From assembly GCF_000002425.4 (NCBI RefSeq), contig NC_037264.1, forward strand, positions 7,355,399 through 7,419,398: a stretch of 64,000 bases of DNA. Direction: 5' to 3'. The notes below the pieces were generated by a model. It worked only from the letters and a program-made list of their open reading frames with translations. It had not been told where the DNA came from and ran no database searches. The position numbers and the translations under genes were made by a program. Each line of letters opens with the position of its first letter. Position 1 is the first letter of the stretch. Shown one piece after another: positions 14,611-57,682 of the stretch. This DNA is from Physcomitrium patens (lineage: Eukaryota; Streptophyta; Bryopsida; Funariales; Funariaceae).

Positions 14611-15538
14611 TGGAATCTGGAATGGACCTGCTCCTTCAACTTTTAAAGCATGCCTAAGTTGTTGTTTGTAATGTTGTGTTGTGTTTATATTTAGTATGTT
14701 GAAATTTGTACATTGAAGCTCAGTCTGATGGTTGGTGTGGTTGTGATATGTTGAATTTGGCAACCTTCTAGGTGAGTTGTCATGTATGCCCGAAGGATTA
14801 AGACGGTGATTCGTTTTTCCTGCTTGTGGATTGCGGAATTTGGTGGACGTCTGTACAATACTCCAGCTGCCAATGAAGTTGCGATTTGGATAGATGGCGA
14901 ACACATTTTTGAGCGTTATATAGGGTATATGGTTTTACAGTATCCATTGCTCTATTTACATGGTAAAGATGGTTGGAATCATAACATTCCTCTATAAAAA
15001 CATCAACCATGTAGGTGATGACAAATAGTTAGGTGAGGAAGGAGTGGCCACTCATGTACAACAATGTAACAATCACAAAATTATATAATTAATGCTTTTA
15101 AATCAAAGAGTTTAATATTAGTACATTGGTAGAATTAAATCACATTTGTGAATAATTTATTGTCAATGCATATGTTGTAGAATAAAGTTGTATAAAATAT
15201 GATTGATACAATTTAAAAAAGCTATGTCCTAACCTTTGTCAAGGTCTTCATTACATGCTTGTTGTGGGAGATACCAATGTTGCTATTGTTAGCCAATACA
15301 TTATTTTTATTTTATTTTATTTTATTGGCAAAGCCTTAAATGTGGCACAAAAGTATGAAGATGTTGTGACAATCTTTTAATAAAGGAGGAGGGAGGGGGA
15401 CAAAGGGATGTGCTATCTAGATGTCTTTTTAACCTTTAAATGCAATGTGCTATATAAAGAAATAAAGCAATTACTATTTTTAGTTAGGAAGGATAGGACT
15501 ATCCATAATTAATATTCAAGGGTTTTCAAATTCGACTT

Positions 15539-21314: not shown

Positions 21315-22584
21315 TAAAGCGCACAGGGTGAAATATCGAGCTTGTCCGATCACGTTTTTCACTAATAGGATGGAGAGTGAACGGAGGTGGTTGTATGGAA
21401 CTGCCAGTCACGATGTGTAGCCAGTATAAATGAAATCAAAGCTGACTTTTGGCGTGAGTTATTTGATTTTTTTATCTGTTTTGTAGTGTCAACCCTGACT
21501 GTTAGTTGGAATGGAATTACTTGCACACGAGGTGCCTTGTTTTTTTGGTTGGCGTCAGTGGCAGCAAGTTGCTAGAACTTAAGTGTTATTTTGTTGCCAC
21601 ATTAGTTTTACTATACTTTTGAGACCTATAACGTACAAATTAACTTGTATATTTTGTTTGATACCACAGCCTTCAAAATATGCTTCTTTAGTTCTTACGT
21701 CAGTTATCAGTGAGCCATTCATTGGCCCGGATGTGATTGTTAGCCGCTGTTTCATGTCATATAACATCCAGCATTGTTCGAACGGGTATCCAGCTTAAAC
21801 CTACCGTAGCGGTTCAATTGCACTTAAATGTATCATCTTCTGCTACACGAAATACAATAACACATTATCCCTTAAGGACTTGGTCCCTAATTACGGAAAA
21901 ATTAAGAAAATATTCTATAAACAACCTGCAGAGCACAGAATCGAGTGTAATTGAGCTTGTGCGAGAATATGGTATTGTAACGCACATAAAAGTACACCTG
22001 GCTAGCCCTCAATATTCAAGAGAATTCACAATAAAACTCTTTAAATTGTTAAATGAAATCCTGCCACTGAAGGTGTGTAACGCCAGTGTATTTATATGTC
22101 CATCAAGCCCCCGAAACAATCAAAGAAGGCTGTGAAGTGTTAATCGTATCAGCAATGTAGTAAAGTCCAATGCTTTTGCATCATGTTTGGTAGTGAAGAG
22201 AAAGGCAGCTGACCAAGCAAGGTATTTCTAGAACTTCCAAAAAAAATATTATTTGCAATACTTTTTCCATCAACACCTAAATAAATAAAAAGCATATGAA
22301 AAAGTGAAGTTGTCAATAAAAGAGGAGTTTTTCAAAGAAGCAAGAGTTTTTCAAAGCAATTAACTCTATTTTTCAATACTTTAGATGTACGTTTTGAAAA
22401 GTTGGGTTTTTGGAATTTATCACCAACAAATTGATTGTAAGAGATATCATTGGCAACTTATTCTTTCACCCATATAAATTTAAAGGAATCACAAAGATGC
22501 AAGTATTTTATCTTTTTAAGCTCAATGAGCCCAATTATAAAGTGTCACAAAATCCCAATTCTATTAAATATTATAAAAGGACCG
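21315..22584. other. 3' flank of zinc-knuckle gene and AT-rich spacer
   Basis: Probable 3' UTR to roughly 21800, then AT-rich DNA up to the inner edge of the right arm. Short frames at 21737-22135 and 22410-22607 show no recognisable domain. Confidence 0.45.
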
Positions 22585-24086
22585 AAGTTGAATTTGAAAA
22601 CCCTTAAATATTAATTATGGATAGTCCTATCCTTCCTAACTAAAAATAGTAATTGCTTTATTTCTTTATATAGCACATTGCATTTAAAGGTTAAAAAGAT
22701 ATCTAGATAGCACATCCCTTTGTTCCCCTCCCTCCTCCTTTATTAAAAGATTGTCACAACATCTTCATATTTTTGTGCCACATTTAAGGCTTTGCCAATA
22801 AAATAAAATAAAATAAAAATAATGTATTGGCTAACAATAGCAACATTGGTATCTCCCACAACAAGCATGTAATGAAGACCTTGACAAAGGTTAGGACATA
22901 GCTTTTTTAAATTGTATCAATCATATTTTATACAACTTTATTCTACAACATATGCATTGACAATAAATTATTCACAAATGTGATTTAATTCTACCAATGT
23001 ACTAATATTAAACTCTTTGATTTAAAAGCATTAATTATATAATTTTGTGATTGTTACATTGTTGTACATGAGTGGCCACTCCTTCCTCACCTAACTATTT
23101 GTCATCACCTACATGGTTGATGTTTTTATAGAGGAATGTTATGATTCCAACCATCTTTACCATGTAAATAGAGCAATGGATACTGTAAAACCATATACCC
23201 TATATAACGCTCAAAAATGTGTTCGCCATCTATCCAAATCGCAACTTCATTGGCAGCTGGAGTATTGTACAGACGTCCACCAAATTCCGCAATCCACAAG
23301 CAGGAAAAACGAATCACCGTCTTAATCCTTCGGGCATACATGACAACTCACCTAGAAGGTTGCCAAATTCAACATATCACAACCACACCAACCATCAGAC
23401 TGAGCTTCAATGTACAAATTTCAACATACTAAATATAAACACAACACAACATTACAAACAACAACTTAGGCATGCTTTAAAAGTTGAAGGAGCAGGTCCA
23501 TTCCAGATTCCACAATCACGGTGTAACGTACGAATCAAGCCACTGCTAATTGTTACCTACTATTATGAACATGACAGAGTCTACACTTCACTTCGTCTGA
23601 CATTGAATTCTTCGCAACCATTGCCTATTATCCTCTTAAACATTCATCGAGTTCGGCACTTGAAAGTCCAATAATAATCCCAAACCACACACAACACAAC
23701 CGCCATGCATTCTCTCCCCTACCGCCGTCACACCACATCACCAACACTAATCATAAATGCGACCATTCCAAACGCATCCACCCATGCATGCACACACGGA
23801 CCTTGGGAGCCATCCGCTTTAACACATCGGACACAGCACATGTGCACCATCTATCAACTTGGGTATGCTCCCGCTTTTCAACTTGGGGAGTGCTGTTGAA
23901 GAAAAAAATAAAATAAGATAACGTAAATCTACTTTTGCCTCTGTCTCAGTAACTGAATTTCATCTACAACTGGCCACCCATGTGCACGCACCCACGTCAC
24001 CATTCGTGTACACGCCCAACCCCCTTCCCCTACCCCCCCCCCCCCAAAAAAAAAAAAAAGAATAAGAAAAAGAAAACCACCTAAAA

Positions 24087-27000
24087 CTAGCTGATGGGCG
24101 CTTGGCCGTGATCGGACGTCTTCAGCCACAAATGACGACCCAGCAGAGGGGCTGTGTGTACAGCCATGTATGCCGCGTTCAACCTGCAACCATCCGCTCC
24201 CACCGTCAGAAACTCCTCCCACACAAACATCCAACCGCAGAACACCACCGTGATCCATGTCCCATACGAACCAAAGTGCACCGCCAATTCGGTGCGCACC
24301 ACAACCACCGCTACTCATGTCTCACCTAACTCACATGCCACACCACCTAAGCTTCACACGCATACCATCAAACAACGCAACCAACGACGGGAACCAGCAC
24401 TCACTTGTCCACGTCGGGCGGGGCCAAAGGGTCAAAACTCTCCTCCTCCTTGTGCTCCACGCTAGGCACGGCGCTTACAGCAACTGAAGCCTGTGCGTCA
24501 CCCTAAACCATGGTGATGTTCGCGCATATGCGATACCCAGAATATCAAAAACAAGAGGCCTCCATACACCTCCCTCATCTCCACCTCTCCCACCTTGGCC
24601 TCTGCCCGGTGATCATCTCACTCCTACACCACTACACCCCCTCACCCCTACTTGCACGCAAAACATACCACCAAGTTCAACATCCAACCTTCCACACGCA
24701 ACATCAACAAACATGTGCACCGTCCACCTTGCCACCATCACTTCCACGCAATCAAACAGCCAGTACCAACACCAAAAGGGATGAAAATAAAACCTCTCTT
24801 CATGTTGCGTCTCAATTATCAATACAAGTGGAAAACCAGCGGACCCGGTCCCTCGTTTATCGACTAACCAGTTCAAGCTTTTCATTGCTCAGGAGAAACT
24901 CCGTACAGACGTTACACCTAACTCAACGCGTCTAACCATGCCCAGCAAGGCTACGTCAACATACAAAAAGCTCTCCGACGGCCTTGCACAACCAGCTTCG
25001 GCTCGGCATCTCACGACTTGCAAAACTTGAAACATCTACTGCCTTGCCGTCAGTCAATGTGAAGGTAAAAAGGCATTCCACGTTTCGACAACTATTCTGC
25101 ACTGTCACACGCCAAAAACGCTCCGGCGGGAATTCACTTCTCACAGTTGCTGAACCCTTCACTGTAATATACGACCACAGCAGACCCAGCCTCAGATCAT
25201 CATCCACGATCATCCACTATCACAATCAAACCAACATCAACCACACCCAAACAAACCCACTCTGCGCCTCTCCACCCCCTCGCCACACTCCCTCCTCATT
25301 CCTGCCTCCCACGCACATTATCACCCTACCCTTTTCCTACCTCTCAACCTACTGTCGCCCGCACTTTCACAACCCCCACAAAATGCACACATCCCTACCG
25401 TCCAACACTCACCCAACTTCGATCCCACTGCCACGACCTCCACCACACCTCAACCCTCCCGCACAACCACAACCACCTTGCCCCTCCATCCTCAAACATT
25501 GCCGCTCACTAACTACCTCACTTGCATACTCTACAATTCACCATGTCACAAACCAAATCATCAACGCCCAAACTCAACGGCACCCCAAAAGAAACTCCGG
25601 CGTACCTGCTGCTGGGGATAGTTCCCATAACCGGGGTAGTTCCCGTATTGAGCGTATGCAGGGTCCTGAGGTGCCGGCGCCGGATATCCGTATTGGTCGT
25701 ACCCTTGTGCATACCCTTGGTAATACCCAGCTGCATTCCATTGATTCGGGTCTTGGTGGTGCCCCCATGCAGGCTGCCCACACAAAACCAAAACAAACCA
25801 CCCACCCCGTCAGCAAATACTCCTCCTATCAACAAAAGCCCCATCACCCCCACGTGATTCATCTCCCAACCCAACACTCCACAACCCCGCCGTCGCATCG
25901 CATAAAACCCACGCAGTCACCCATCAACTTTCACTTTCCAACCCAGACTGCGACTTACATCACTCGTCTGCTTGTTCCCGGGACTTCTACCCCACGACAG
26001 ACGCACTGCTTGTGTCCCGATCACCGTCTGGTGAAGCCTTTGCAGCGCCTCCTCTGCGCACGCTCTGCAACACACAACACCGCACGGACACGCATCCAAC
26101 ATCAAATTCCCCTGTTACATGCTTTCACTGCCGGATACATTCCGCTCACGACTTGCACATCATCATCATCATCAATGCTTCCTTGTGGGCAGCAAAATCC
26201 GCCAACGACCGCGCCTTCTCACGCCATCCATCACGAACAACAACCAACAAAATCCATGCCCCAAAATAGCCAATAAACAAGTGCTCCTAGGCGCTCACGC
26301 ATACCTATGCGTGAACTGGACGAACCCGCATCCTTTCCCGGCGGGAATCTTCACATACACCAGTTCTCCAAATTGCCCAAACACGTTCCTCAAGTCTTCG
26401 TCCCCAACCGCTGGGTCAAGTCCTCCCACGAATATCTACCAACGCAAATCCACCGCACCACACCCATTACCTTAAACCACCAACCCATCTTCCACATCTC
26501 AACGTATTCTATCCTTCACAACGTTTCATCCCGGAGAACGTGCCCGCCCACACATTCTCGTCGCACTTGCGTCCCAACACCGCATCTCAAATCATGATCG
26601 CTTAATCACCAAAGAAATCACAAACGCCCCAGCTCCACAACAAAACCAGACGCAGGGCCCACACACACACACACAGTACCGATGCCTTACGGTTGTATTG
26701 TTGGGGTCGTTGTCTGTGGGGAACGCCTGCGGAGAGGGCTGCGCTCCGTATGCTGCATATGTTGCCACGGCTACGGGAGACACTGCGTCCACTCAATCAA
26801 CCACCACACATCGCCGTCAGCCATGCACCGCCTATCGTATGCCACTCACCAACTTGCCACACTCTACAACCCAAGCTTTACCCCTTCGATCACCACAACG
26901 TCAACGCCACACACATACTCACCGCATCCTCCACATTGCACCCATCTTACTATACGCCTCACATCATCCACCGCGCACTCACGTTCACTTCTCACCCCCA

Positions 27001-28854
27001 TGGACTCTACAAACGACTCCCCAAACCCACACCCACGCCTTACACCTACCACCCTCCTACCAGCGGGGCTCCAACGTCGCATCACAATCACACCTCTCAT
27101 ATCTGACACCTTGCTCGACGCTCATACGTACGAATAACTACACACCACACGGAGCTCCCTCAACCGCGGCGTAACCCCGGTTGGGAGCCACAGGAATAAG
27201 AACTACCCACCCCAAACATGAAAACCGGCACAAGCGTCCTGTCACGACGTCCGACACACGCATCATAGACTACCCGCCAACTCCGGCCAACACCACTAAC
27301 AGGACCGTCACGACACCCACCGGCCATCCCCAACGCACTGACCAACATGCATTACAAACAACAAAGATAGACGCAGACAAAGAGTATAACTCATCATACC
27401 GACAAACAATCCAACCAACAAAACGAACAAAGAACCATGCTCCACATGGAGAAACGCCACACACAATCAACCACACAACGCAGCAGCAAAACGTGCAAAC
27501 AGCGGACACTGACCTAAATCACGCCCCACTCACTACTGACGGTCCTTTCCCAGTTGCCGGGTTCTCTTTGTAGGCACCCTTGGTAGCAAGCCTCTTGCCC
27601 TCCTGCTCCGACACAGATTATTGACGAATAAGCTTACCCGCCACACATCACTTTGACCTACACGACCTTCACTCAACCTTCATCCCACCATGCTCTCACC
27701 GCATTGGATACGGAACTGCAACTTTCGCCATAGCGTTTCACCGTCCTTACTTCCCCAGACGCCCATCAAATCACAACCCAACCCACAACCCCGCCCTTGC
27801 ATCGGCCTCACACCAACCTCAACCACACCACGCGCAAACACACCCAACACCCCCGATTTCCGCGTACACGCACCTTTCGGATTCAACTGATTAGGGCCCA
27901 GCGATTTCTTCGGCGTTGCTGCGCTGATCCGCATCGGCCTGCTCGAGCAGTAAATCCCGTTCATCTCACTCATCGCCCGATTCCTTTCCATCTCATCGCC
28001 GAAACGCACGAACCCGTATCCTTTCGATCGACCTGTGTTGGCGTCCGTCACCACCTTCGCACCCTTCACAGATGGGTACCGGGTGCGAAACGTCTCCTGC
28101 AGCATGTAATCCGTCACATCGGGAGCCAAATCCCCTACAAAGATCGAGTGCTCCGGTCCCGCCTCCGGCCGCCTCTCCCCTATTCCAAACGAAGCCCAAT
28201 TCAGCCGGAAAGGCTGCTCTGTGTTCGGCATCTGAGTGCCGTTGTAAGCCTGCAAAATCTTCTCCGCTGCCACGTGAGACACAAATTCCACGAACCCGTA
28301 CCCTTCGGAGTACCCCGTCTGCTTGTTGCGAATGATCTTCACAGACTGCACCTGCAACAACCATTCCCACCCTCCGTTAGCATGCCATCGCCTGTTCCCA
28401 ACCCATCCTGCCCGCTCTGGAACATGTAATCTCATTGTGCTCTGCTATGCGATCCCCACAATCCTCCATCCATTCCCTCCACTCCACAGCCGCTCTAACT
28501 TCGCAAAGCTGCCATCGCATCATCATGCAACACCATCCACAACACCTACACGACCTACCATGTTCACACCAACAGCGCCCCGAAACGCACGGTCCCACAC
28601 AAACCTATACCCCCCCCCCTCGGAGGCACCAAAGCTGCTCACACAAGTACCTCTCCGGTGTGTACAAAAGCTGTGTGCAAGTAGTTCTCGTCCATCCAGT
28701 ACTGCAGATCTCCAACCCACAACGTTTTCACCTCCTCGTGATGCTGAGGCTGCATCCCCGACTGTTGCATCATCACCCATTGCTGCGGCTGCTGCTGCTG
28801 CCCCTCTGCCTGCTGCCCATGCGGGGGCCCGGCCCCTGCTGGCGACTGCATCAT
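24087..28854 (-). CDS. RBP45: RBP45/RBP47-like protein with three RRMs (right copy)
   Basis: Mirror copy of the left-arm gene on the minus strand. Exons are 28651-28854, 27874-28351, 26691-26782, 26305-26435, 25959-26064, 25606-25773, 24405-24490 and 24087-24183, encoding the same 453 residues with three RRMs and the Tyr/Gln/Gly-rich tail. I saw no substitution in coding sequence or introns relative to the left copy, and all splice sites are preserved, so both copies should be functional if both exist. The gene points towards the spacer, so transcription of the two copies converges on the zinc-knuckle gene region. The optional 69-base cassette exon lies at 27534-27602. Perfect identity may mean very recent duplication, gene conversion or assembly duplication. 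Confidence 0.92.
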
Positions 28855-31800
28855 CCTCTACGACCACCCCGCTTCAGACACTAAGCCAATAAATCTGCGA
28901 TTCCCAAACTTTTAGGAAGACCCCCGATTTTCCAGCCGAAACTAATTCCTCTGCACAAACCCTGCAAATTCCACACCAACCCCGCCAAATCAGTTTTCAT
29001 GTGTCACAAACCTCCATCCCGCTACGTTCCCATGCGAATATCATCACCATCCTTCCACAATGTCCTCGTGTACTGGACAACGTCCGAAAAGCATAAAACC
29101 GTGCCGACTGATACCCAGGCCCCCAAGACGGGCGGGGGAAAGAAACCTCCCTCGCCTGTACATTCTCGGTTGCTCTGGTACACAAGACATTCTAAAATAA
29201 ACCATCCCATCGCACGTTCCCACCTCGGCGACACCACCCCTGCCAACTAACTCGTTCCACAACAATTCGTATCGACTTCCTGCAACAAATTTCGGCCGAT
29301 GCCTGCAGCGCCAGCTCACAGTGATAAGGAATACATAACTTCGTCATACACACCGCGTATTGTTCCAGGTCCAAACTGTCACGTCACCCACAACTCCCCA
29401 GCAGCACGCAGTTCACCTGCTCCTCTAACAACGACGACGACGACGCAGCTTCCGGATATCTGCGACACAACTAACCCGTGACCTCTCGCATCACCTCACC
29501 GAATCATGGCACTCTGCGCTCCGGCAGAATCTGCAAAACCCTGTCACGCCCAACCACAGCGGACCACGCACCAGCTCCGCCTACTAAAACATCATCCGCC
29601 GCCGCATTGCAGCTCGACGCAAACCCTCGCCATCTCTCCAACGCACGACTCCAAACTCTAACCCACCCGACTCTCTCGCCCAAAACCCTAACACCGTCGC
29701 CTACAAATCTCTCCGCATGACAAAAAATTACATAAAAATGTAAAAAACCACCAACCGGCAAACCAAAACACAATTCCAATAAAACAATCCCCCACGCATC
29801 CATCCAAAGCCACAGCCGCCGACACAACCGACAACCGAGCTCTACACCACCGCGCCCATTCCCAAAGCGGACTCCGACCACACCCCGCGGTCCCAAACCC
29901 CAAACCCTCGCACCCAGCGCAGTTGGAAAAGCGACACCCAGCCAACAGAAAAAAGAATTGCACACGCGAAGGGCAGGAGGTGGGGGGGGGGGACAAGGAG
30001 GAGGAGGAGAAAGAGGAGTGAGTACCTGCAGTCAGGGCGAGCTAGGGTGGCGGACGGAGTGACGATCCCATGCAGGAAGGAAGGGGGGATGGGGCGGGGA
30101 AGGGGAGGGAAGGGAAAGGGGGGGAGGGGGACAATCGAGAGAGAGAGGAGGTTCGTCGCAGGCGTAGTCGGAGACAGGCGGCGCTTCATTCACAGCCCCC
30201 GCCCCCGACCGAGCCAGCGAAGAAGTGGCGGAACGACCCCCGCATCAAGGAAGGAAAGGCGACGATGGCGAAGGAAGGAATACGAAGGGGGGCTTCAGTG
30301 CGTGTGGGCTCCACCCTTGGACGGACGGACGGACGGACGGCCGGCCACGATGCCCCGCTCTCCTGCCCTCGCTCTCATCGTGCCCGTCGCGGTGCGGCCC
30401 CAGCTGCTCGCTCCCCTGCCCTGCCTGCCTGCGTCGCCTCCCTCCCCCCCCCCTCATTCCCTGGACGGCCCCGATGTAGCCGCGTCCCGCGCAATCTCGC
30501 ATCGCAGCCGCCGTCTGCTCAGTCTCCCCGCCATTCTGACTTCCTTCCTTCCTTCCTTAATCTGGTTTCTCTTGAACCCGGTCCCTCGTCCCTCCCCGTC
30601 TAGTGCTCCGTCCCCCGCCTTGCCATCCATCGCTTTGTCCCGTCCTGCCACTCCCGCATGCCAGCCTTTCTTGTCCCTTTCGCTCTTGCTTCGTTTCCAT
30701 CCCTGTTCGCTCTTGCGTCCGTGGGCTGCACTGCGATGGCCCCTTTCACTGTCCCCTCGCCGTGCTGTTCAAGCACCGCGCGGCACCCTTTGCGCTGAAT
30801 CATGGTGCGCTGCAGTGCATTGTCCGGGAAGGCAACGAGACCTTGTGGCGAGGCCCTTAGCCTTGCGCCGCAATGGTGTGTGCAATTCTTGTGTGCAATC
30901 CCGGATGCCCTTGCTCTGTCTCTCCGTTGCTGCACATTTCCGCTCCGAGATTGTTGGGCACGCGGGCATTCCATGGACGAGTGTACGAAATTCATACCGG
31001 TGGTAGGATATGATATTAAGTACCATCATCATCACAATCAAACAGTGTTCCGTGTCATGTCAGATCCAAGTGGAGGAAGCTTGCATGGCTCGCTGTTCAA
31101 AGCGGCAAGACCGCACAGAGAATAACATGAAAGCCTCAACAAAAGCGCGGTTAAGTTGGAAGATACTTCCAGTCCCGCCGTTCCCGATGGCGTGGCCTCG
31201 GAATGATTTTGTGGGTTTCAACCGCGAGGGCCTGGAATCCCCCTTGTTGGATTCTATTCTCTGGGCATGGTTCGTGCTTCGTTTTTCAAGACCATTCTTG
31301 CCAGTTTTATTTACTGTTCTGTTTTTTGCTTTTATTTCTCTTCTGGGTTTCTAGATTCTAAGCAGTTTGTTCGAATTTGTTATAATGTGTAGCTTTTCTA
31401 GAAATAATGGCGAATTGAGTTCGTTGGGAATATCTTGGTCATTCTTCATTATGTTTTTCTTCTTAGTTATTGTCATAGATCATTTTAGTAAGATTCTTTT
31501 CCTCGTGTGTATTTTATCTTCTTTGTTGTTGATGGTTCAACTACTTTTTTTTTCTCGTTGGTTGTACCCAAAAATATTATGTTTGGACTTTTTTCCGTCA
31601 TTTTTGAAGGAAGCGCTAGGTGATGTTACTGCATGCATGAACATATGATCCAAATTTGCTTTGTTTTCGATAATTTTCTGAAGTTTTAGTGCGTAGTTGT
31701 GTTTTGTTGTTTGTTGGTTTTATTTTTATTTTCATTTTGCTGTCTTTTACGGGCTAGATACATGACTTTTCCTCTCTTAAGTGTTGCAGTACATCCAGTG

Positions 31801-32356
31801 TATTTAAGTCATGAGCATGATGCATAGGTACCTCACCTTTACGTTTGGTCAGCATTTGCTATTTATCACAAACATGTAGCTTTTTATTTGTATTCAGTTT
31901 AGCTTGATGCAATAAATGTGTTTAAGATTTGTATAATTATGACGTGACGCTTTTTATTTTGTTTGTATTGTTGTTTGTTGAATCATGTGATGAAATTTGC
32001 CCTTTCTCTACTTTTTACACTATTTGAGTTCCACTTTGTTTTGTTGGTTTGGTTGGGATGGATGGCTTATGCTTTTACAACCTAGTAAATGGAATCATTT
32101 CCATTAAATCTATACATTACGACAAGTTTATTACAGATTAATATTGTTTCTGATTTGAATCTTGTTTTATTTCAGAACGTGTCTCAAATATTTGTAATGT
32201 TTTTGAATTTGTATGAGTGTGATCATGTATTGAAAATGATCAAGACGTTCAAGTTACATCTGCTTTCGATTTTCACAACCATGCTAAAGGAATTGTACAA
32301 TACTGATGGCACTCACGTGTATTCGCGGTTTGGTCTGTCGTGCATTAATTCTTAAG
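28855..32356. other. Upstream region of right RBP45-like gene
   Basis: Mirror of 5450-8951: leader with pyrimidine-rich tract (purine-rich on this strand, 29980-30160), GC-rich promoter-proximal DNA with (GGAC)n at 30319-30339, then AT-rich DNA. No additional gene is recognised. Confidence 0.5.
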
Positions 32357-32942
32357 CATAAACCCCTACGAGGTGGCGTTTTTCTCACTTTCACAAGTTG
32401 CATTATATAATGATTTTCCAAATGCTGATGAACGTGCACCGTATACGCAATAAGTAGTGTTATTCTAGCAACTATTATGCCTCACAAGTGAGGAACTTAT
32501 TACTGCCAAGACAAACCTGATGAGTCCTCACATTCATTTTGAATGAGCTTTTTCATTTTCTGAGTAGACCATGTCGGAATATTGAAGGACCACTTATTCC
32601 GATAGGTTTGTCGACGCTCTAAATTTGAAGGATGTTACGATGTAAGAGCTGGATCACATATCACTAAGGGTGCTGGATTCGTTTGTGATCGCAGCGCATG
32701 TTTGCATCATCCATGAGCACAGTCTGTGATTAGCGGTACCTGTCTCAGAGAATGGGTTATGAAGATCTAGTCCTCAGAACTCGTGGAGCGACGTGTGCGG
32801 AATCGTGCTATAGACCATCACAGATTTCTGGACCACTAAGTCTTCCAATTCTCCGAGCTCGACTGTTTTGTTTTCTAGATTTTAGTTAGCATTTTTCCGA
32901 ATCACTACTTACTCCCTTCTCCTTGCACCCATATTTCTTTGC

Positions 32943-42434: not shown

Positions 42435-42930
42435 TGACAAAAATATACATGAAAACCAATAATTACCTATATGATTAGATAAAAGTAGATAAAAATAAAT
42501 TAATTCCATAATATCTTTTATAAAAGCTTCCTTGAAGCTTTATAGATGTTGCTTTGTCTTTATAAATGTTTATAATTGAATTTTTAGATTAGAAACATGG
42601 TCAACAAGTTAGCCATGTATTATACATGTTGATAGCTTAAAGAACAAGCTAATTATGTGGCACACATATAGAAAACTTGCCTTGTAAGCTAAGGTATGTG
42701 TTCTGCAAAGTCAACACATATTAGAAGTCTTATAGAATATCACCACGTAATTCCAAGTTAGATAGTATATATAGAGGTAAGAGTGAAGCCTTCTTCATTC
42801 TTGTCAATTTTTTTTATATATATATTTTAGATTCAAGAATTTCTAATTTTCTTGTCTTTTGGCAATATCCATTTCAGTTTCTTTTTAATATACATACTAC
42901 TTTACTTCGATTTTGTTATTTTTTTTTTTA
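42435..42930 (+). repeat. LTR fragment inserted in the decayed element
   Basis: Sequence related to the LTR at 47273-47462/53606-53954, in the same orientation, recognisable by AGATGTTGCTTTG, TTATGTGGCACACATATAG and GCCTTCTTCATTCTTGTC. It interrupts the reverse transcriptase region of the minus-strand element, so it is a later, probably solo, LTR insertion. The ends are blurred by decay. Confidence 0.7.
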
Positions 42931-45407: not shown

Positions 45408-47272
45408 TGCTTTATTACAATTAGAACAATTAATAGGTTAATTTAAAAAAAGTTGATATAAATAAATTTAATTTTAGATTTATCTATTTTGATTATAGTA
45501 TTTAAATTATATAGAATTTAGATATTTAGTATAAACTTTAAAGAAAAAATAGGGATTCAAAAATGAAGACTCAAATCTCTAAGAAGCTTATTTGGAGGAA
45601 TGAAAGCAAGGCATGGATGGATGAAGGTAAAGAATGAAGATCTTTATCTCTAATGGTCAAAAGCCATGCCTAATAGGCTCTCAAGAGGTTGTCCATGACC
45701 ATAATAAGGATTTTAGCAACTTCAAAAGAAGCATTTGATAATCAAAATAAAGGATTTTAAGGTTTAAGATTTAAAATATATTTTTTATACAAAGTTTAGA
45801 GGATTTGGAATTAAGATGATAAAGTTATAGTTGTTTGAAGTTAAAGCATTTTTTTTAAGATATAATATTGCTCTTTTGAAGATAAGAAGAATTATACGAT
45901 AGTTTTTAGAGATCAAGAGATGTGGCCGTAAGAGTAATTGTAAGACCTATGTCTTTTGCAAAAGAATTATTATATTTAAAAATTTATGAAGGAATTATTG
46001 AGCATTGAAGATAGTACATGTAATTTAAAGACAATAAGTGAACTTATTTTTTATTAGTAATGATTAGAGCTATGTCTTGAGTTTTTGGATGAATTTTTGG
46101 CTCAAAATTTTTAAAGATGAATATTATTAGGTTAAAAGGCTATATATCAAAATTTTATAATATTTAAATATTTAGTTTGTGAGATATAAAGAAAATTACA
46201 CAAGGAAATATGTAAGCAAGGATTTGAAGCTATTGTTAGGATTTTGGCAATATCTCAAGATTTATAACAAATTTGTAGTTGAAATTTTTTTTGGTAGTTG
46301 TTTAAAGTACATCAATACTTCATGTAAAATTTTAGTTTATTTGGACAGTCCAATCATGAAATATGATCTATTGAAGTTTGGAAAAAAATTGCCTTAAGGA
46401 TATATAAAGATTTAAAATATTTTTATGATATTTTGAGTATTTTTTGATACTTAAGACTTATGTATTGATGTAATTATCCCTATAGAGACAAATTTATATA
46501 TATATAATTGTTACTTTTTTATCTTGAGACTTAATTGAGCAATTAGTAATAGCCAGAAGTCTATCAGTTTCTTAAGGCAAATTCTTTCTAGTATAACAAC
46601 AAATATGATATTTATAAATGCATATGGAAGATGTTAAAGAATCTTACAAATGTATCAAAGAAGGTTGAAGTTCTTCATCAACAAAATCCATCAAAACCAA
46701 GATGAAGAATAACAAATCTTTGATATAAAAGAAACAAGATTTAAAGAAAATAGAATTTTACTTTCTATTCTTGTTTGGTACTTTTGAGCATTTAAGATGC
46801 TAAGGAGATGAAAAATCAGCAATTAGTAGATTCAACCTTAAGAGCTATCACTTATTGACTTATTAGATGAAATATTGTAATTATCACAACCTTCAAGTTG
46901 ACATAATCGAGATGAAGATCTTAAAGAATAATACGTCTTTCCTTGAATAAATGACAAGTTACAATGTATTTGGTATCATGACTTTAGAAGAGACTCCCAA
47001 TATTTGGTGATTTTATTAGAGATTGGAACGATTCTTAATTGTGTTCCAAATGTTTTATTTGAAGGAAGTTACAAAGGCCTCAACAATAATCAAGTAATAT
47101 AGTAGTCTTCTTACCTTGATATTAAACACTATGAATAACTGAGAGGACCTATCAACCATCTTCTAAGAGATTAAAGATCAAAATATGTAGCAAACACAAT
47201 TTGTCGTATCTTGGATTTCTTTAATATATGATAATTGCTCCTTATGAAACTCATCTTTAGAAAGAAAGATAA
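45408..47272. other. AT-rich DNA, no gene recognised
   Basis: Only one short frame (46179-46397) without a recognisable domain. The base composition matches decayed transposon DNA but I could not assign it to a family. Confidence 0.45.
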
Positions 47273-47462
47273 TGTCACGAATATATGTATTTAGTCTAAT
47301 ATTAATCTATATGATTAATTTGAAATAAATAAAATTAGATTTATATCATAATATGTTTTAGAAAAGCTTCTTAGAAGCTTTTTAAAAGCTTCATAGATGT
47401 TGCTTTGACTTTCCATGTATTTATAGTTAATTGGTAGATTAGAAACTTGATCAATAAATTAA
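47273..47462 (+). repeat. Solo LTR, left part, split by the young element
   Basis: Starts TGTCACGAATAT. It is interrupted at the ATTAA target site (47458-47462) and resumes at 53606. It belongs to the same LTR family as 33973-34465 and the fragment at 42435-42930. Confidence 0.8.
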
Positions 47463-47875
47463 TGTCACGGACACAAAATACAGACTTGAAATCTAACAAG
47501 AAGTTCAAGAAGAAGTGGCAGAACTAGATTAAACAGATGAGTACAAGAACAACACCAGAAAGGTGAGCTAGAACTCCAAGAGATGTGTTGTCGAGACTGA
47601 AGAACCCTTCAGCCTCGACTCCTATATATACTACTGAATAGGAAACTTCTCGAGCTACTTCCGCTAACTAGGACGCTTCTCCAACAACTTCTACTAATTA
47701 GGAAACTTCTCGAGCAACTTCCTAGAATCTATCAGAATATTTTAGAACCTTCTAAGAGAATCTTTAGGGAATATTCTAAGAATTCTTCTAGAACCTTCTA
47801 AAGGAATCTTTACAGAATCTTTAGAGAATATTCTAGAAGAATAATCGAAGAATCTTCTAATGTATGTCCATGACA
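47463..47875 (-). repeat. 3' LTR of young chromovirus
   Basis: 413 bp, TGTCACGG ... ATGACA on the plus strand. It carries the same TATA box (47623-47630) and GAA/TTC array (about 47730-47860) as the other LTR but lacks its 21-base duplication. Confidence 0.95.
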
Positions 47876-47895
47876 TCACTTCCTCTTCTAACTTC
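47876..47895 (-). other. Polypurine tract of young chromovirus
   Basis: On the minus strand it reads GAAGTTAGAAGAGGAAGTGA directly before the 3' LTR, the usual plus-strand DNA primer site. Confidence 0.7.
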
Positions 47896-47925
47896 AAGGT
47901 CTCCGAGAAGCAATGTTGTTATCAG

Positions 47926-48273
47926 TCAATACCAACGCAAGAAAATGAAAATCTGTCGCATCACATCCGCTATGAATTTCAATTGTTGTTCGCGAGGCAA
48001 ATGATTCATCGGCCCTTGGAGCCAACGGTAGTGACCAACACCTTCAACCTCTGACCAAGCGTGGACTTCTGTGTCTTCATTGTGAAACTGTCCTCCAAAC
48101 ACACCTTCTGGCTGACCGTCGTAGGCAGGCTCGACCTCAAATACAATTACTAGCGATCTGTTGCTCGGTATCCTCCGACGTCGTCGTGGTGCAGGCAGTT
48201 CTTCATCTCGCGGTCGTCTTCGTGAGCTAGTCGCTTGAGATGACATAACAAGTGTAGTATCTTGACTATCCAT
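47926..48273 (-). CDS. Extra ORF between chromodomain and 3' LTR (unknown)
   Basis: An open frame of 115 residues in sense orientation, starting at an ATG about 130 bases after the pol stop and ending about 50 bases before the 3' LTR. The N-terminal part is Ser-rich, then strongly basic (SRRRPRDEE ... APRRRRRIPSN, a possible nuclear localisation signal). The C-terminal part is acidic and aromatic (EVEPAYDGQ ... HYRWLQGPMNHL). There is no transmembrane segment or signal peptide, so it does not look like an envelope-type protein. I do not recognise a family. Chromoviruses usually end at the chromodomain, so this ORF is unusual. It could be expressed from a spliced or subgenomic RNA, or be a captured fragment; composition alone cannot prove that it is coding. 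Confidence 0.5.
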   Translation of the reverse strand: MDSQDTTLVMSSQATSSRRRPRDEELPAPRRRRRIPSNRSLVIVFEVEPAYDGQPEGVFGGQFHNEDTEVHAWSEVEGVGHYRWLQGPMNHLPREQQLKFIADVMRQIFIFLRWY

Positions 48274-48399
48274 GTCCAAAGGCTAAAATGATGAGAGCAA
48301 ACTATAGTTGCTAACAAAGTTCTACACTATCGAACTATGAGTTTTGGAGGTGCCCTCCCCCCTTTTTATGCTACTTGATGAGCAAGCTTCAGCAAGAAG

Positions 48400-51300
48400 C
48401 TATCGTTGAATCGGCTTAGGTTTATGAGGATATCGTTGATGAAATTCTTGTACCTTTTTTGGTGCATTGGCAAGATTTTTGGCACGCTCCCACGTTCGTT
48501 TATTGATGTCGTATCCACTCCAATGCACTAAATACTCCAATTTTCTCCTATTACGTCGTGAATCTAGTACCTTTTCCACCTCGTATTCCTCATGGTTTTC
48601 AATTTCGATACTTGGTGGCGGACTTTGTACTCTTTGGGGAAAAGCTGACTCTCGATAAGGTTCCAACAAAGACACATGAAAGACTGGATGTACCTTCATA
48701 GTAGCTGGTAACTCTAGACAATATGCCACCGGATTGATCTGCTTCCCGATAACAAATGGCCCTAATCTCCGATAGTCCAATTTGTCACATGGCCGCTTGG
48801 TCTTGATATTCCGTCGAAGAAGCCATACTTTACTTCCAACTTTAAAAGTAGGCGCCTCATTTCGATATTTATCTACAAATGCCTTGTAACTCTCTTGGGC
48901 AGATTGCAATTGAAGCTTCAACGTCGCTTGAAGCTCCGATAGTTGCTTCACAAATCCTTCAGCTGCTGGGTTGTTATTTGCTGAAGAACTCAATAAATCG
49001 AGCTTGGGGTGGTATCCGTAGTTGGAGAAGAATGGTGTTTATTGAGTTGACGCATGAAGAGTGTTGTTGTATGCGAACTCAGCAAGCGGTAGATATGCAG
49101 TCCAATCATCTTGTTGATAGTTGATGCTGCATCGTAAATATTGCTCCAAAACTTGATTCACCCGCTCCGTTTGACCGTCAGTTTGAGGATGAAAAGCCGA
49201 AGAGAGCTTAATATCCACCTTCAATATCTCAAAGAGAGACCTCCAAAACTTCGATACAAACTGAGTACCTCGATCCGACACGATATCATCTGGTAGGCCA
49301 TGATAATGATATATGTTATCAAGAAAGAGTCTTGCGGTGTCTTCACTTGACGATGTTTTCTTGCAAGGCACGAAATGCGCCATCTTTGTAAATCGATCCA
49401 CCACAACAAAGATGCTGTCAAATGAATTTGATGGCGGTAGGTCCGTAATGAAGTCCATAGAAACTGAAGACCATGGTCAGTGCGGAATAGGCAATGGCTG
49501 GAGAAGTCCATACGGACGATGTCGAGGGATCTTGGATCTTAAACAAACATCACAAGAAAGGACAAATTCCTTCACATCCTTCCACATTTGGGGCCACCAA
49601 AAATCTCGTGAAATGAGCTCCAAAGTCTTGTTGAATCCAAAATGTCCCGCAGCTGGAAAGTTGTGGCGAGATTGAAGTACTCGGAGTCGAGTTGGTCCTT
49701 TCGGGATATACAACCGCTCCTCAAAATACAGAAGATCTCCCTCCACCTTAAACTTGTCATTATCGACACGTTGTTTGATGTCAAGAGCTATAGAATCCTC
49801 AATGGTCGCAGTACGTACCTCGCTGAGGAAGCCATCATCGATAGTTGCAACAGTAGCAAAAATCCTGAATTTTTCTGGTTTCAACAATGTTGTACATTGT
49901 TGATCAAACGCTGCTTCTCCAACCTTTGGCGCAAGATACGATCTCCTCGATAATGCGTCAGATAATCCTTGCTGTTTTCCAGGGCGGTAGGTGATAATAA
50001 AGTCAAATCGTGATAGAGACATATTCCATCGAGCTTGACGACGATTCAAAATTCGAGCTGTCATGAAGTACTCCAAATTCTTGTGGTCCGTATAAACAGT
50101 CACTGGATGTGCAGCTCCTTCAAGGAAGTGACGCCACTCTTGGAAGGCATCCACTATAGCAAGCAGATCTTTGTCGTGGATCTCGTAGTTGATCTCAGCA
50201 GCAGAGAACTTTCGTGAATAGAATGCAACTGGGTGAAACTTCTTGTCTATGCCCATCTGTGAAAGCACAGCTCCCAAAGCAAAATCTGAAGCATCGGTCT
50301 CTAAATAGAAAGCCTTTGCAAAGTCAGGGTGTACCAAGATTGGAGCCGTAGTGAATGCCGTCTTGAGATCTTGAAATGCTTTTGCTGCTTGTGATCCCCA
50401 TTCGAGCTTGTCTTTGCTTGTTAGACGCGTGAGTGGTGCAGCAAGTTGAGAATAATTCTTGATGAAGATCCGATAGAAGTTAGCAAATCCAAGAAAACAC
50501 TGAACATCTCTAACCGTCTTCGGAACTTCCCAAGATATAATTGCTTCTACCTTTTTTGAATCCATCTTCAAGCCCTCTGTAGTCGCAATGAAGCCCAAAA
50601 ATTCCATCTCATTCTGGTGAAATTGACACTTCTCCAACTTGGCGTAGAGTCCTCGTTCGCGTAGTTTTTCAAGAATCAAACAAACGTGCTTCTCATGTTC
50701 TTCTTCATTCTTGGAAAATATCAAAATATCATCCAGATAGATGACAACAAAGTCATCGAGGTACTCCCGAAAGATGTCGTTCATCATATGCTGAAAGACC
50801 GCTGGAGCATTGGTAAGACCAAAAGGCATGACATTGTACTCAAAATGGCCATACCTTGTACGAAAGGCTGTCTTCCATTCATCTCCTTCTTTGATTCGCA
50901 CAAGGTTGTAGACTCCTCTTAAATCAATCTTTGTAAAAATCCTTGCACGTCCAAGTTGATCTAAGAGGCCGGAGATCAAATGTAAGGGATAGCGATTTTT
51001 CTTGGTCACCTTGTTGAGTCCTCGGTAGTCCACGCACATCCGCAGTGAGCCATCCTTTTTCTTCACGAATAGGATTGGTGCTCCAGCTGGCGACTTTGAA
51101 TGTCGAATAAAATTCTTGGCTAGATTCTCATCGATGTACTTCCACAATTCTGCCAACTCCGTCTGCGATAGGTTGTATATTGGACCAAAAGGTGGTTGCG
51201 CTCCTTCCTCTAAGTCTATGGCGCAATCATATGGTCGATGTTCCGGCAGTATATCGGCGTTCTTCTTCTGAAACACGTCTTCAAAATCCCTATATTGCTC

Positions 51301-51888
51301 TGGTATATTCGATGTTGAGATATTCTCGCCGCTAGTTGGAGCTGCATAAATGACAAATGGTACGCCTTCCTTGGACGATCTTAGGAACGCTCTCGCTCCA
51401 ATAAACATGGATTTCTTCATGTAGGTTCTACCAACAGGTTTATTATTATTTTTTTCAGGAAATGTTATCCTTCGTAGCCTCCAATCAATGGACGGATTAT
51501 GATCTTCTAACCAAGAAAGATCAAGGATAACAGGGCTTGATGGGATTCTAATAATATTAAAAATAACGTGACTACTATGGTCCTTAAACACCACTTCTAT
51601 AGGTTTTGATTCGTGGGTAACGTTGCCTGACAATAAGGGTCGTCCATCTATCACCTCTACGTGAACAGGTTTGGACTTCTGTACTAAACGGATCTTGTGG
51701 CGTTTAGCAAACTCTTCATCTAAAAAACAAGTAGATGCCCCCGAATCCAATAAAGCTAAAGTTTTTTGTTTTTGAGGGCCTAAAAACAAAGGAATTGTAA
51801 AACAACGGGCAGGTTGGACAGAGAAGGAGGAACCTGATTGTTGTCGTGATATTAGATTGTCCAGCCGCACGGTTCCTACTGTGGCTGG
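48400..51888 (-). pseudogene. pol of young chromovirus: PR-RT-RH-INT-chromodomain
   Basis: One reading frame interrupted by two nonsense codons, TGA at 49477-49479 (after PLPIPH) and TAA at 49039-49041 (after HASTQ). Domains in order: protease with LLDSGAST (near 51750); reverse transcriptase with YLDDILIFSK (near 50730); RNase H with ETDASDFALGAVLSQ; integrase zinc finger (H-X6-H ... CDVC); and the integrase core with its acidic residues in [17 protein letters not shown] and [15 protein letters not shown]. The integrase C-terminal part and a chromodomain (YEVEKVLDSRRN ... YLVHWSGYDINKRTWERAKNL) follow. The catalytic residues I could check are present. Both stops lie one C-to-T change from a sense codon (CGA or CAA). 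Related chromoviruses make gag and pol from one long transcript. Confidence 0.92.
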
Positions 51889-52864
51889 GCGTCGTCGTTT
51901 TCCGGAATCATCGCACTTCTAGTCTTGACAGGGTGCCAATTTTGCTTCTTTGGGCAATTTCCAACCTTGTGACCTTCTTCTCCACAGTACAAACATAACC
52001 CTTCCTCCATACGCCGTTTCTTCTCTGTTGGAGTAAGAGATCGGACACGCGCCGTGTCGATTTGCATGTCTGTTGCCTCCGAATGTGAGTTTAAGCTATT
52101 TGCAGACATAGCCACGTCGTAACGAGTCATTTGGTGTCTTGGCGATGCTGGAATAGGCGGTTGTCACACTTTACACCTTGGCTAATAGCTTCGTTGAGCG
52201 TTTGAGGATTAGGAAGAGATAACAGCAAGTCCTTCACATCATCCTTCAAGCCCCAATAAAACTGACTCACCAACGCCTCTTCACCCCAATTAATGTCACT
52301 TGCCAATTGTCTGAAATCCGAGGCATAGACTGATGCAGAGCGTGTTCCTTGTCGTAGCGATCGGATCTTTGTTGTAGCCCATCGAACTTTATCATGCTCG
52401 CCAAATGCTTCTGCAAACGCCTCCAAGAACGTTTCAAAGTTGCTCAGGATTGGCGATCGCTTCTCGAACAAGGGAGTAAACCAAGACAGAGCTTGTGCTG
52501 TAAGCAAGGTTCCAACAAGCCCAACACGCGCTTCCTCCGTCGGATAACGTTCGGGCTATAAAATTGTTATCAACCTGATTTGGTTGACAAAACCTCGAAA
52601 CTTGGAACGAGTTCCATCAAACTTATCCGGAAGACTAACTCGAGGCTCCTTTCGTTGTAGGACTACTCGATCTTGTTGAAATGGAGGTAGAACTGCTTCT
52701 TCTGGCGCAGAAGTTTGAGGCTGAAATGCTTTAGATGGCGCTATCCCAGATGCTCCATTGTTATGGAGTCCTACCATGACTCCTTCGATCTTTGTTGTCC
52801 TATGTGACAACGAGGCAAGAGCATTTATGATGGCGTCTAGTTTGGATTCCAAACTTTCAGCCAT
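51876..52864 (-). pseudogene. gag of young chromovirus, with CCHC zinc knuckle
   Basis: Starts at the ATG at 52864 (MAESLESKLDAI). A TAG at 52556-52558 interrupts the frame after about 102 residues. It then continues through the capsid-like part (LTAQALSWFTPLFEK ... GLKDDVKDLLLSLPN) to 52127. The zinc knuckle CLYCGEEGHKVGNC (52130-51876) is in the -1 frame relative to the preceding part, and pol is again -1 relative to the knuckle. A -1 shift at gag-pol is a known retroelement strategy; the first shift is more likely a one-base indel. The protein would coat the RNA inside cytoplasmic particles. Confidence 0.85.
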
Positions 52865-53132
52865 TTTAACGTCTTAACCTTCGGCTAACCTTCAGAAAGA
52901 AGAAAAAAGAGTTTTGACAAGAGGACAATATTGGTTCAGAGGAGAGTACTCCGCAACCTCTAAAACGCCTTAAGACTCCAAGATGAGGGGTAATCCACTC
53001 TCTCCAAGAAGAATAAAGCTCCAATATTGAGAAAGAAGAGATATCAGTTTAGAGGAGGGTAATCCGCAACCTCTAAAACACTAGCACACCTTCAAGAAGA
53101 GGGGTAATCCACTCTCTAACAAGAAGGAACTA

Positions 53133-53144
53133 GCTCTGATACCA
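53133..53144 (-). other. Primer-binding site (tRNA-iMet) of young chromovirus
   Basis: On the minus strand TGGTATCAGAGC, complementary to the 3' end of initiator tRNA-Met. It lies 23 bases inside the 5' LTR edge rather than directly next to it, which is unusual. Confidence 0.75.
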
Positions 53145-53327
53145 GTGAAAATGCAGTCTCGACAAACTGTCACGGACACAAAATACAGACTTGAAATGTA
53201 ACAAGAAGTTCAAGAAGAAGTGGCAGAACTAGATTAAACAGATGAGTACAAGAACAACACCAGAAAGGTGAGCTAGAACTCCAAGAGATGTGTTGTCGAG
53301 ACTGAAGAACCCTTCAGCCTCGACTCC

Positions 53328-53335
53328 TATATATA
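53328..53335 (-). promoter_or_regulatory. TATA box in 5' LTR
   Basis: TATATATA read on the minus strand within AGTATATATAGGAG, about 105 bases downstream of the near edge of the GAA/TTC array. It is conserved in the 3' LTR at 47623-47630. Confidence 0.7.
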
Positions 53336-53439
53336 CTACTGAATAGGAAGCTTCTCGAGCTACTTCCGCTAACTAGGACGCTTCTCCAACAACTTCTACT
53401 AATTAGGAAACTTCTCGAGCAACTTCCTAGAATCTATCA

Positions 53440-53585
53440 GAATATTCTAGAACCTTCTAAGAATATTCTAGAACCTTCTAAGAGAATCTTTAGGGAATAT
53501 TCTAAGAATCTTCTAGAACCTTCTAAAGGAATCTTTAGAGAATCTTTAGAGAATATTCTAAAAGAATATTCGAAGAATCTTCCAA
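53440..53585 (-). promoter_or_regulatory. Array of perfect heat-shock elements in 5' LTR
   Basis: The array consists of alternating GAA and TTC triplets spaced by two bases, the binding pattern of heat-shock factors. On the plus strand GAATATTCTAGAACCTTC occurs twice, 21 bases apart (53440-53457 and 53461-53478); further perfect blocks are GAATCTTCTAGAACCTTC (53506-53523), GAATATTC (53552-53559 and 53564-53571) and GAATCTTC (53575-53582). Looser repeats (GGAAACTTCTCGAG type) continue to about 53345. The array is upstream of the TATA box in the transcription direction. Confidence 0.8.
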
Positions 53586-53605
53586 TGTATGTCCATGACA
53601 ATTAA

Positions 53606-53954
53606 TGACATGTTGGTAGCTTGTGGAAGAAGTTAATTATGTGGCACACATATAGAAAACTTACCTAATAAGTTAAGATACGTGTATTGCAAAGTCAACA
53701 TGTTTTAGAGGTCATATAGAATACCGCCATGTAGCTCTTAGTTAAGAGTATATATGGAGGCAAGAGTAAAGCCTTCTTCACTCTTGTCATTGTCTTTTTT
53801 GTCTTAAGTCTTGTTTTAAGACTTTCCAGTCTTCTTGTCTTTACTAATACTCATTCTAGTTTAATACTAAATCATCTTTAAGTGATTTTTAATTCTTTTG
53901 AGTTATACAAGAGTGCATTGAGGATTTCTTTCTTTGAGCTTCATGTCCTTGATA
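53606..53954 (+). repeat. Solo LTR, right part
   Basis: Continuation of 47273-47462 after the inserted chromovirus, ending CTTCATGTCCTTGATA. It matches the outer parts of 33973-34465 directly and its middle part in inverse orientation. Confidence 0.78.
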
Positions 53955-56216: not shown

Positions 56217-57682
56217 ATGAGTCGTGTATGGCGATCGCTTTGGCCGCGGGTTGGTGGGATGAGAGTGGAGGAGAAGATAGGGTGTGGTTGCCGATACGTT
56301 GCGGTTCGAAGGGCGAGTGTGGAAGCTGGAACTGAGAGCCGAAGCCCACGGGAAGAGGAGTCCAGTTTGCCGCTTGTACAAAGATGTAAGAATCTGCTGG
56401 CGGCCAATTGGAGGGCGCAGATTACCACCATAAATGCGAACGACGAGGGCCCGGATGCGCCTAAAGTGCACGGTTCACTAGTTAATTACATTCTTGTGGG
56501 CGGGAATCCGTTGTTGTGGATACCAAAGAACGATGCGCATGAGCTGAATTTAGTGTTGGATGAGCGAGGGTCTCTGGTGGTCGGGCACACGGACCCGCCG
56601 CCGCTAGTACGCGCGTGGCGGGAAATAGGACGTGTGCCGCCTCGGGTCATGTTGCTGGGATCCGTTGCTCCTTTGCAGAGACATGAGTTGGACTACGTCA
56701 AGCGGAGGGTTGCAAAGGTCCATTTCGCTGTTAGCGACGCAGTGAAGGAAGCAGGAGCTGCTTTGCAATCTGTGTTGCACGAATCAGGAACGTTGGTTAA
56801 CTCTCGAGCTCAGGCGCTTGAACCTATGGTGAAAACCACTGATGCAGAATATTCAATTTTTAGCATGGCGCCGAAGTAAGTTTGCGAGCTAGTTTCTGAT
56901 TCTGGGTTTATTTTTCTGTTTTTCTGTTTTTTTTCTTTTACAGAGTGGAAATGCCGTGTTTCTCTAGTGACGAATTGTACCTTCAATTAGAGCAATGAAT
57001 TTTCTCACTCATAAGAGTGGCAACTTTCTTTTGCAGATCTTGTCATTTTGTGGATGTGCTCGGGGGGCGTCATGAGGTCGATGCAGCTGATATTGCAGGT
57101 GCTGCAGTGGACCCCCTGTGCAGAGTCCTGTTGGCACTCATCGATGGCATCAACAAGAGTGAAACGCGAAGATTTGCACTTATCGTCTTCTGTGCAGGTG
57201 CATACTTTCACTGAGTGAAACACGGACAATGTTGACATCATTCCCATGGGGCCCATGCCTTGAAAGACAATGAGTTGGAAAGCTGTATTTTGGCTTCTCA
57301 AGTATCTCCAAACTGTGTGATTTTTAAGGATGAGAGTTTAGTAACACAGGTTTTATACTTCATATCATCAAGATTTCATCTTCTAGGTTTTATTACTGTT
57401 TCCTGTGCAGTTTACTTGCAAGTTCGAGTTCAGGATGCCTACATTTTTGCCGCAGACCGGTGGGGTTTCAACGTACTTGCCAATGTCATGCCAAAAGAAG
57501 ATTCCGATGCAGTTGATTCCAACAAGCTTTGGAGAGAATTTCGATTTGGTTTTGCCAGGGAAGTGAAGGATGCAGAGGGTTTCTGTGTTTTGCTTGCGGA
57601 GATGGAGAAAGAGAGTCTAGACGCCTTGAAGAAGGCTCAGGAAGTGGACCCAGATTTTTTGAAGAGAAATGTCCCTAAGTAG
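56217..57682 (+). CDS. FMN-binding split-barrel (PNPOx-like) family protein
   Basis: Three exons (56217-56875, 57037-57197, 57411-57682) total 1092 bases and 363 residues with consistent phases. The N-terminal ~45 residues are rich in Arg, Gly, Val and Ser, low in acidic residues at first, and may be a plastid transit peptide. A central domain contains VHGSLVNYILVGGNPLLWI and PPRVMLLGSVAP. The C-terminal domain contains FVDVLGGRHEVDAADI and SLIDGIN-like (ALIDGINKSETRRFALIV), then AYIFAADRWGFNVLANV. I recognise this layout from plant pyridoxamine 5'-phosphate-oxidase-like proteins with an added C-terminal domain (Arabidopsis At3g21140/At1g51560 type); that link is from memory and untested. Catalytic activity is unknown for this branch. 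The gene converges on the coiled-coil gene with about 0.7 kb between stops. Confidence 0.72.

Follow-up and report, generated by a model that had tools for sequence, protein, structure and literature searches.

The window, a stretch of 64 kb on contig C12 of the 470.4 Mb assembly, contains a complete LTR retrotransposon flanked by a short target-site duplication (Table 1). Pfam searches identified gag, protease, RT, RNase H, integrase and chromodomain sequences. The order protease-RT-RNase H-integrase, together with the LTRs, the target-site duplication and the primer binding site, is that of a Ty3/gypsy chromovirus, and the chromodomain lies at the C-terminus of the integrase (PF00385, E = 3e-16). 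These results bear out the chromovirus identity proposed in an earlier sequence-only reading of this DNA, which had also suspected a bryophyte host; the nearest named proteins of the genome are mostly bryophyte. For an exon in the window and an intronless gene elsewhere in the genome, the closest named matches were to Sphagnum, Riccia and Ceratodon, with a weaker one to Protea. We take the primer binding site to fit initiator tRNA-Met. Because pol is broken into separate ORFs, the window copy is probably not autonomous. The 5' and 3' LTRs differ by 7 substitutions over 412 aligned sites and by 22 gap positions (K2P 0.0172).

Both flanks of the element align with L053, a member of a second chromovirus family, and the right-hand match restarts 14 bases past the end of the left-hand match. 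On these alignments, the window element is inserted into a decayed element of the second family. Another relative of the second family's LTR lies in the window at 42619-42859 and is 80% identical to the flank at 53601-53842.

Table 1. Features of the window element, its flanks and the LTRs of the second chromovirus family. Positions are those of the window, except in the last two rows, where they are those of the locus named.
Feature	Position	Strand	Basis or remark
Whole LTR retrotransposon, Ty3/gypsy chromovirus	47463-53600	minus (transcribed on minus)	LTR pair, target-site duplication, domains
5' LTR, 433 bp, termini TGTCA...TGACA	53168-53600	minus	LTR pair comparison
3' LTR, 413 bp, K2P to 5' LTR 0.0172	47463-47875	minus	LTR pair comparison
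Primer binding site TGGTATCAGAGC, 23 nt inside the 5' LTR	53133-53144	minus	Sequence
Target-site duplication ATTAA, 5 bp	53601-53605; other copy 47458-47462		Sequence
TATA box TATATATAGG	53326-53335	minus	Downstream of HSE array in the element's direction
gag fragment (Retrotrans_gag)	52127-52507	minus	ORF and Pfam
pol ORF: protease, RT, RNase H, integrase zinc-binding domain	49477-51870	minus	ORF and Pfam
Integrase core, own separate ORF	49039-49458	minus	ORF and Pfam
Integrase C-terminal region with chromodomain	48400-48993	minus	Pfam
Perfect four-unit HSE	53440-53457		Motif scan
Perfect four-unit HSE	53461-53478		Motif scan
Perfect four-unit HSE	53506-53523		Motif scan
Decayed further HSE block, one mismatch	53546-53563		Perfect three-unit HSE at 53551-53563 in 18 of 25 other LTR copies
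2.8 copies of 30-bp repeat with two-unit HSE-like cores	53344-53427		Between array and TATA box
Three-unit HSE remaining in 3' LTR	47786-47798		Motif scan
Three-unit HSE in 3' LTR	47826-47838		Motif scan
Left flank: end of second-family chromovirus element and start of its LTR	46969-47460	+	72.2% to L053 over 497 bp
Right flank: part of decayed second-family LTR	53608-53862	+	75.6% to L053 over 258 bp
Second-family LTR, L046	5894-6432		Several W-box and some ABRE cores
Second-family LTR, L053	3665-4217		Several W-box and some ABRE cores

The U3 region of the 5' LTR carries three perfect four-unit heat-shock elements (HSEs; GAA-nn-TTC-nn-GAA-nn-TTC) 105-188 bp upstream of the TATA box, as the sequence-only reading had described, and these blocks are the only arrays of at least four units in the window. 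In segment 53168-53606 there are 3 arrays of at least three units, a number never attained in 5000 dinucleotide shuffles, which averaged 0.0136 such arrays. No four-unit array is present in the 3' LTR, where two three-unit arrays were found. When one mismatch in nine was allowed, 51 three-unit matches were found in the window versus 29-33 in five shuffles, and the two 200-base bins richest in these matches fell on the two LTRs of the element. HSE-like cores also reach nearer to the TATA box than was first noted, through the 30-bp repeats between the array and the box, and the LTR contains tandem repeats whose periods are about 10, 21 and 30 bp. The U3 contains 5 CG and 5 CHG sites (both strands) in 265 bp, counted in two pieces, which rules out an ONSEN-like absence of such sites and is listed against the HSF-based promoter discussed below.

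About 2.6 kb from the HSE array, an ORF at 56217-56879 has moss-like relatives, including a Sphagnum protein that is 55% identical. It lies on the strand opposite to the element, reads away from the array and is a candidate neighbour for an effect on expression. Elsewhere in the window, positions 4909-14293 and 23513-32897 are inverted copies of each other, 9385 bp long and 99.97% identical, and a further pair lies at 14394-15559 and 22564-23729. A gap of 100 Ns interrupts this region at 14294-14393, with a 217-bp exact overlap flanking it. The inverted repeat looks like an unresolved assembly join, although a real recent inverted duplication is possible.

A search of the genome with the window LTR returned 5784 candidates, of which the best 40 were scored. 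These 40 were long LTR matches, the window's own included, and 25 of the 39 other places were analysed; L009/L022 and L011/L017 are the same places and were each counted once. Three copies of the 21-mer, with at most 2 mismatches, were present in all 25 of the other LTR copies, while all three four-unit blocks were present in 22 and two blocks in the remaining 3. Since three 21-mer copies occur in every one of these LTRs, the 21-bp difference in length between the window's LTRs represents a loss in the 3' LTR, and not a duplication gained by the 5' LTR as had been claimed. Two elements, L016/L017 and L018/L019 (contig C6), have LTR pairs that are identical over 433 bp and matching flanking duplications, which argues that they moved very recently and counts in favour of an LTR promoter driven by heat-shock factors (HSFs). 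L029 looks like a solo LTR with a duplication. The LTRs of L020/L021 have a K2P of 0.0187 and share no duplication, and so may not belong to one insertion.

Variation per site and copy was compared among 24 young LTRs, with L031 and L028 excluded because their LTRs are not 433 bp. The values were 0.0074 for the HSE cores, 0.0076 for the spacers, 0.0017 for the rest of U3 and 0.0092 for R-U5. Extra constraint on the HSE core bases was not found among these 24 LTRs, as the cores vary like the spacers and more than the rest of U3. We count this against heat as the driving force of the elements. The same result, and an LTR that is visibly made of tandem repeats, would suit a view in which short AT-rich modules were duplicated in tandem and the arrays are a by-product of this process, with no part in regulation. 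We consider such an origin quite improbable in view of the genome-wide distribution of the sites and the comparison with related LTRs described below.

Because the query that yielded the 25 close copies includes the HSE array, LTRs were picked again by means of an HSE-free TATA/R sequence of 24 bases, which occurs at 1452 places in the genome. Twenty such LTRs were picked along contig C1 and 19 were counted (L071 was left out). A perfect four-unit HSE was present at least once within 300 bp upstream in 18 of the 19, the exception being L084. Comparison of two lists gave a four-unit HSE at 7 of the first 8 listed TATA/R places on C1, which are different from the 19. The GAA/TTC array is thus kept across genomic copies, whether close copies or LTRs picked by TATA/R, and an HSE of at least three units upstream of the TATA box is found in the LTR group to which the window element belongs. 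This is the opposite of the loss of the GAA/TTC spacing from other copies that the sequence-only reading had named as a sign of a chance simple repeat.

The four-unit pattern is its own reverse complement, and the same pattern read backwards served as a control. Genome-wide, the pattern occurs 11,443 times and the control 81 times (approximately 140-fold), which argues against a by-product of duplication. The first 100 four-unit places form 50 clusters, and 26 of the 50 have a partner at 5.0-6.5 kb versus 3.6 expected at random, an excess that is as expected for LTR pairs. The LTR parts were compared for a sample of 26 of the 50 clusters, all in the first 2.1 Mb of contig C1. All 26 match LTRs of the window's kind, 24 well and two weakly. 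The window LTR was matched by L057 (92%) and L061 (85%) along some 220 bp, and both were then used as extra references beside it. For a further 22 clusters, a match of 152-181 bp to one of the three R-U5 references was obtained, at 86-98% identity, and the weak R-U5 matches of L060 and L092 span only 68 and 47 bp at 81-83%. By extrapolation, and not by count, roughly five to six thousand LTRs would carry four-unit sites. The subfamilies differ in U3 and in array, with up to five and six units in L056, L057, L062, L064 and L065, but keep the GAA/TTC phase, which is a second argument against a by-product. The centre TTCTAGAA is present in 92 of the 100 listed four-unit sites (counted by eye).

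A random 200 kb (GC 31.3% of all letters, 3.3% N) contained 0 four-unit and 3 three-unit arrays versus 0.1 and 3.8 in shuffles. Three-unit sites therefore occur there at chance level, which again does not favour a by-product of duplication. The genome mean predicts about five four-unit sites per 200 kb, and their absence from this sample, which we list against an HSF-driven promoter, suggests that the sites are clustered or that the sample was unlucky.

The abundance of four-unit sites raises an alternative, in which the elements are kept silent in living tissue and are little transcribed, and the thousands of HSEs they carry serve mainly to titrate HSFs, as a sink. The chromodomain family RLG1 is described as sitting in heterochromatic islands (PMC7466625), which would be compatible with silencing. 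The identical LTR pairs oppose this view, as they indicate recent transposition, for which element transcription is required, and we regard a mere sink as very improbable.

The second chromovirus family, represented by L046 and L053, has RT sequences 76-78% identical to that of the window element. No HSE arrays were found in the two LTRs of this family, which have one two-unit core each, and this absence is difficult to reconcile with arrays that arise simply as a by-product of duplication. We count the level of the arrays in the window's group, which is far above chance, their retention in copies and the two-unit cores of the two second-family LTRs in favour of an HSF-based promoter. The LTRs of L046 and L053 contain 6 and 8 W-box cores and 1 and 3 ABRE cores, respectively, and the partial second-family LTR flanking the window element contains one of each. 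In the six LTRs checked of the other kind, five of the window's group and L001, the ABRE core (ACGTG) was absent and the W-box core occurred at most once. Two related families in one genome thus display different promoter logic, with HSE arrays in one and W-box/ABRE cores in the other. The TATA motif of the second family occurs 2577 times in the genome.

Outside the genome, a GTDB scan identified seven loci on eukaryotic-type contigs in cyanobacterial bins, and no relative was confirmed in IMG/VR by two protein scans and one DNA pattern scan. L001, from a bin whose name presumably refers to a Negev soil-crust study, has a pol 88% identical to the window's, and its contig ends at a pair of three-unit HSEs that lie directly upstream of the same TATA/R sequence. 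The loci L002-L007 were found in a Trichormus bin, and the water fern Azolla is the probable source of their DNA. Four of the six fern-like U3 regions (L002 right end, L005, L006 and L007) have one three-unit HSE starting 77-88 bp upstream of the TATA box; these four are related to each other and are therefore not independent. L003 stops short of U3, and no three-unit HSE was found in L004 or in the left end of L002, where 172 bp of U3 are available. Shuffling each outside-relative LTR piece 2000 times gave a three-unit site in 0.15-0.3% of shuffles. The three-unit HSEs upstream of TATA in L001 and the fern-like loci count for an HSF-based promoter, and a position shared with relatives outside the genome speaks against a by-product of duplication. 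Three-unit arrays are lacking in L050 and L054 (other relatives), L004, L084 and the left LTR piece of L002, and these cases are listed against the HSF-based promoter.

The two LTR-like ends of L002 (1-323 and 4877-5208) are strongly different, at 76% over 66 bp, and L002 may therefore be a chimeric assembly or two different elements. By eye, the fern-like LTR starts (L006 2455-2560; L002 right, L005 and L007) are tRNA-like on the other strand, with A- and B-box-like words; ARAGORN found no tRNA genes in the seven loci. P0096, a protein of Powellomyces, which we take to be a chytrid, is 66% identical to the window element over 418 residues of the RT region. In an RT tree built without reference Tcn1, P0096 joins outer lineages with fern-like and frog sequences (support 0.50). 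The chromodomain residues resemble group I by eye. The frog-genome proteins P0029, P0038, P0073, P0087, P0088, P0100 and P0109 align with part of the window pol at 42-61% identity, and the two placed in the RT tree group together. Horizontal transfer or an amphibian lineage of such elements is possible.

The best-described parallel is ONSEN (ATCOPIA78) of Arabidopsis, whose LTR is reported to be bound by HSFA2 in vitro (PMC3907296). ONSEN resembles the window's group as an LTR retrotransposon with a four-unit HSE in its LTR and related families with different arrays, and the strength of its HSE has been proposed to reflect duplication of a proto-element (PMC3907296, PMC5059998). ONSEN with a four-unit element is reported to rise 185-fold in B. 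antipoda and 884-976-fold in two Arabidopsis species, which also carry a gap-type element, and not to rise strongly in Brassicaceae species lacking the strong element (PMC5059998). ONSEN is described as a Ty1/copia family represented in A. thaliana by eight full-length copies, with a promoter that lacks CG/CHG sites, whereas the window's group, known here from sequence alone, is a Ty3/gypsy chromovirus group that has some CG and CHG sites, HSEs in the thousands across the genome and, in the window subfamily, usually three four-unit blocks to each LTR. The gypsy domain order and the chromodomain rule out membership of the ONSEN family proper.

Mobile elements supply much of a genome's HSEs in Caenorhabditis as well, where Helitrons are reported to contain more than 10,000, over half of all those in C. 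elegans (PMC6927752); these are animal DNA transposons, and HSF-1 binding was demonstrated in that case. The Cryptococcus LTR elements TCN3 and TCN12 are described as moving at 37 C and as having two and one putative HSEs in their LTRs, respectively (PMC12810828). They are fungal and have few sites, and a role for HSF is inferred both for them and for the window element. Moso bamboo PHRE1 and PHRE2 are, like the window element, Ty3/gypsy, with heat-induced activity, but are reported to bind TCP20, DOF2 and GATA, and the available text names no HSE (PMC8656106). Tcn1-like chromoviruses of mosses, lycophytes and fungi are likewise chromodomain gypsy elements of non-seed plants (PMC2864245, PMC3350952); we liken the window element to them by description only, and the available text of both sources makes no mention of HSEs.

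In Physcomitrium patens, RLG1 is described as the most abundant gypsy family, with a chromodomain, and RLG2 as a gypsy family induced by heat and ABA (PMC7466625). Both are moss gypsy LTR elements and are set beside the window's group by description only, and the words HSF, motif and cis are absent from the main text of that paper. If P. patens is the host, as is likely, the window's group could be filed under RLG1, RLG2 or another name. Identity with RLG2 is disfavoured, as the RLG2 tree is reported to follow plant phylogeny (PMC7466625) and the window element looks Tcn1-like. Heat-induced Ty3/gypsy elements have been published for other plants in addition to RLG2, and the earlier suggestion that heat control would be unusual in a gypsy element was too strong. 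Heat-induced gypsy elements, a mobile-element origin of HSEs (in C. elegans) and putative HSEs in Cryptococcus elements are thus known already, and what is unusual here is the scale. Among the matches listed from the open-licence literature, no paper dealt with arrays of HSEs in the LTRs of mosses or ferns.

HSFs could also bind the arrays and act mainly in development, in oxidative, UV or dehydration stress, or through repression by class B HSFs, so that heat need not induce the elements. HSF families serve several stresses. RLG1 is reported to be expressed in unstressed protonema and repressed by heat (PMC7466625), which lends weight to such a role and counts against heat induction. Conversely, four-unit HSEs accompanied strong heat induction in Brassicaceae ONSEN, as reported in PMC5059998, and ABRE cores are absent and W-box cores scarce in the six LTRs checked; we count both points against such a role. 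We consider a predominantly heat-independent role unlikely.

Taken together, these data lead us to favour the view that the window element belongs to a young, multi-subfamily group of moss chromovirus LTRs whose promoter is probably built on HSF sites, with HSF-driven, heat-induced bursts of activity. Under this model, the HSE arrays would have grown by tandem duplication, and HSF trimers would bind them cooperatively in heat or in another HSF-activating state. The bound HSFs would recruit transcription to the TATA box, yielding genomic RNA in bursts and, from it, recent copies. The mechanism would resemble that of Arabidopsis ONSEN, although the superfamily differs and the copies are far more numerous. 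As a likely by-effect, the window's group would hold nearly all the strong HSEs of the genome.

More tentatively, we propose a broader picture in which this one chromovirus group is the main holder of strong HSEs in the moss genome, with thousands of arrays built by duplication and reshuffled. Heat would drive the bursts, and the pool of HSF sites might buffer or rewire the heat response. The fern-like and soil-crust relatives suggest that the habit may be old in non-seed plants. HSE-driven retrotransposons have been studied best in copia families of low copy number, and here a gypsy chromovirus group seems, from the location of 26 sampled clusters, to hold almost all of the perfect four-unit HSEs in a genome of 470 Mb. 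If HSFs bind these sites, the moss would offer a testable system for a heat response that operates amid thousands of transposon-borne sites. It would also allow a test of the growth of HSE arrays by duplication, and of heat episodes as a cause of retrotransposon bursts in mosses.
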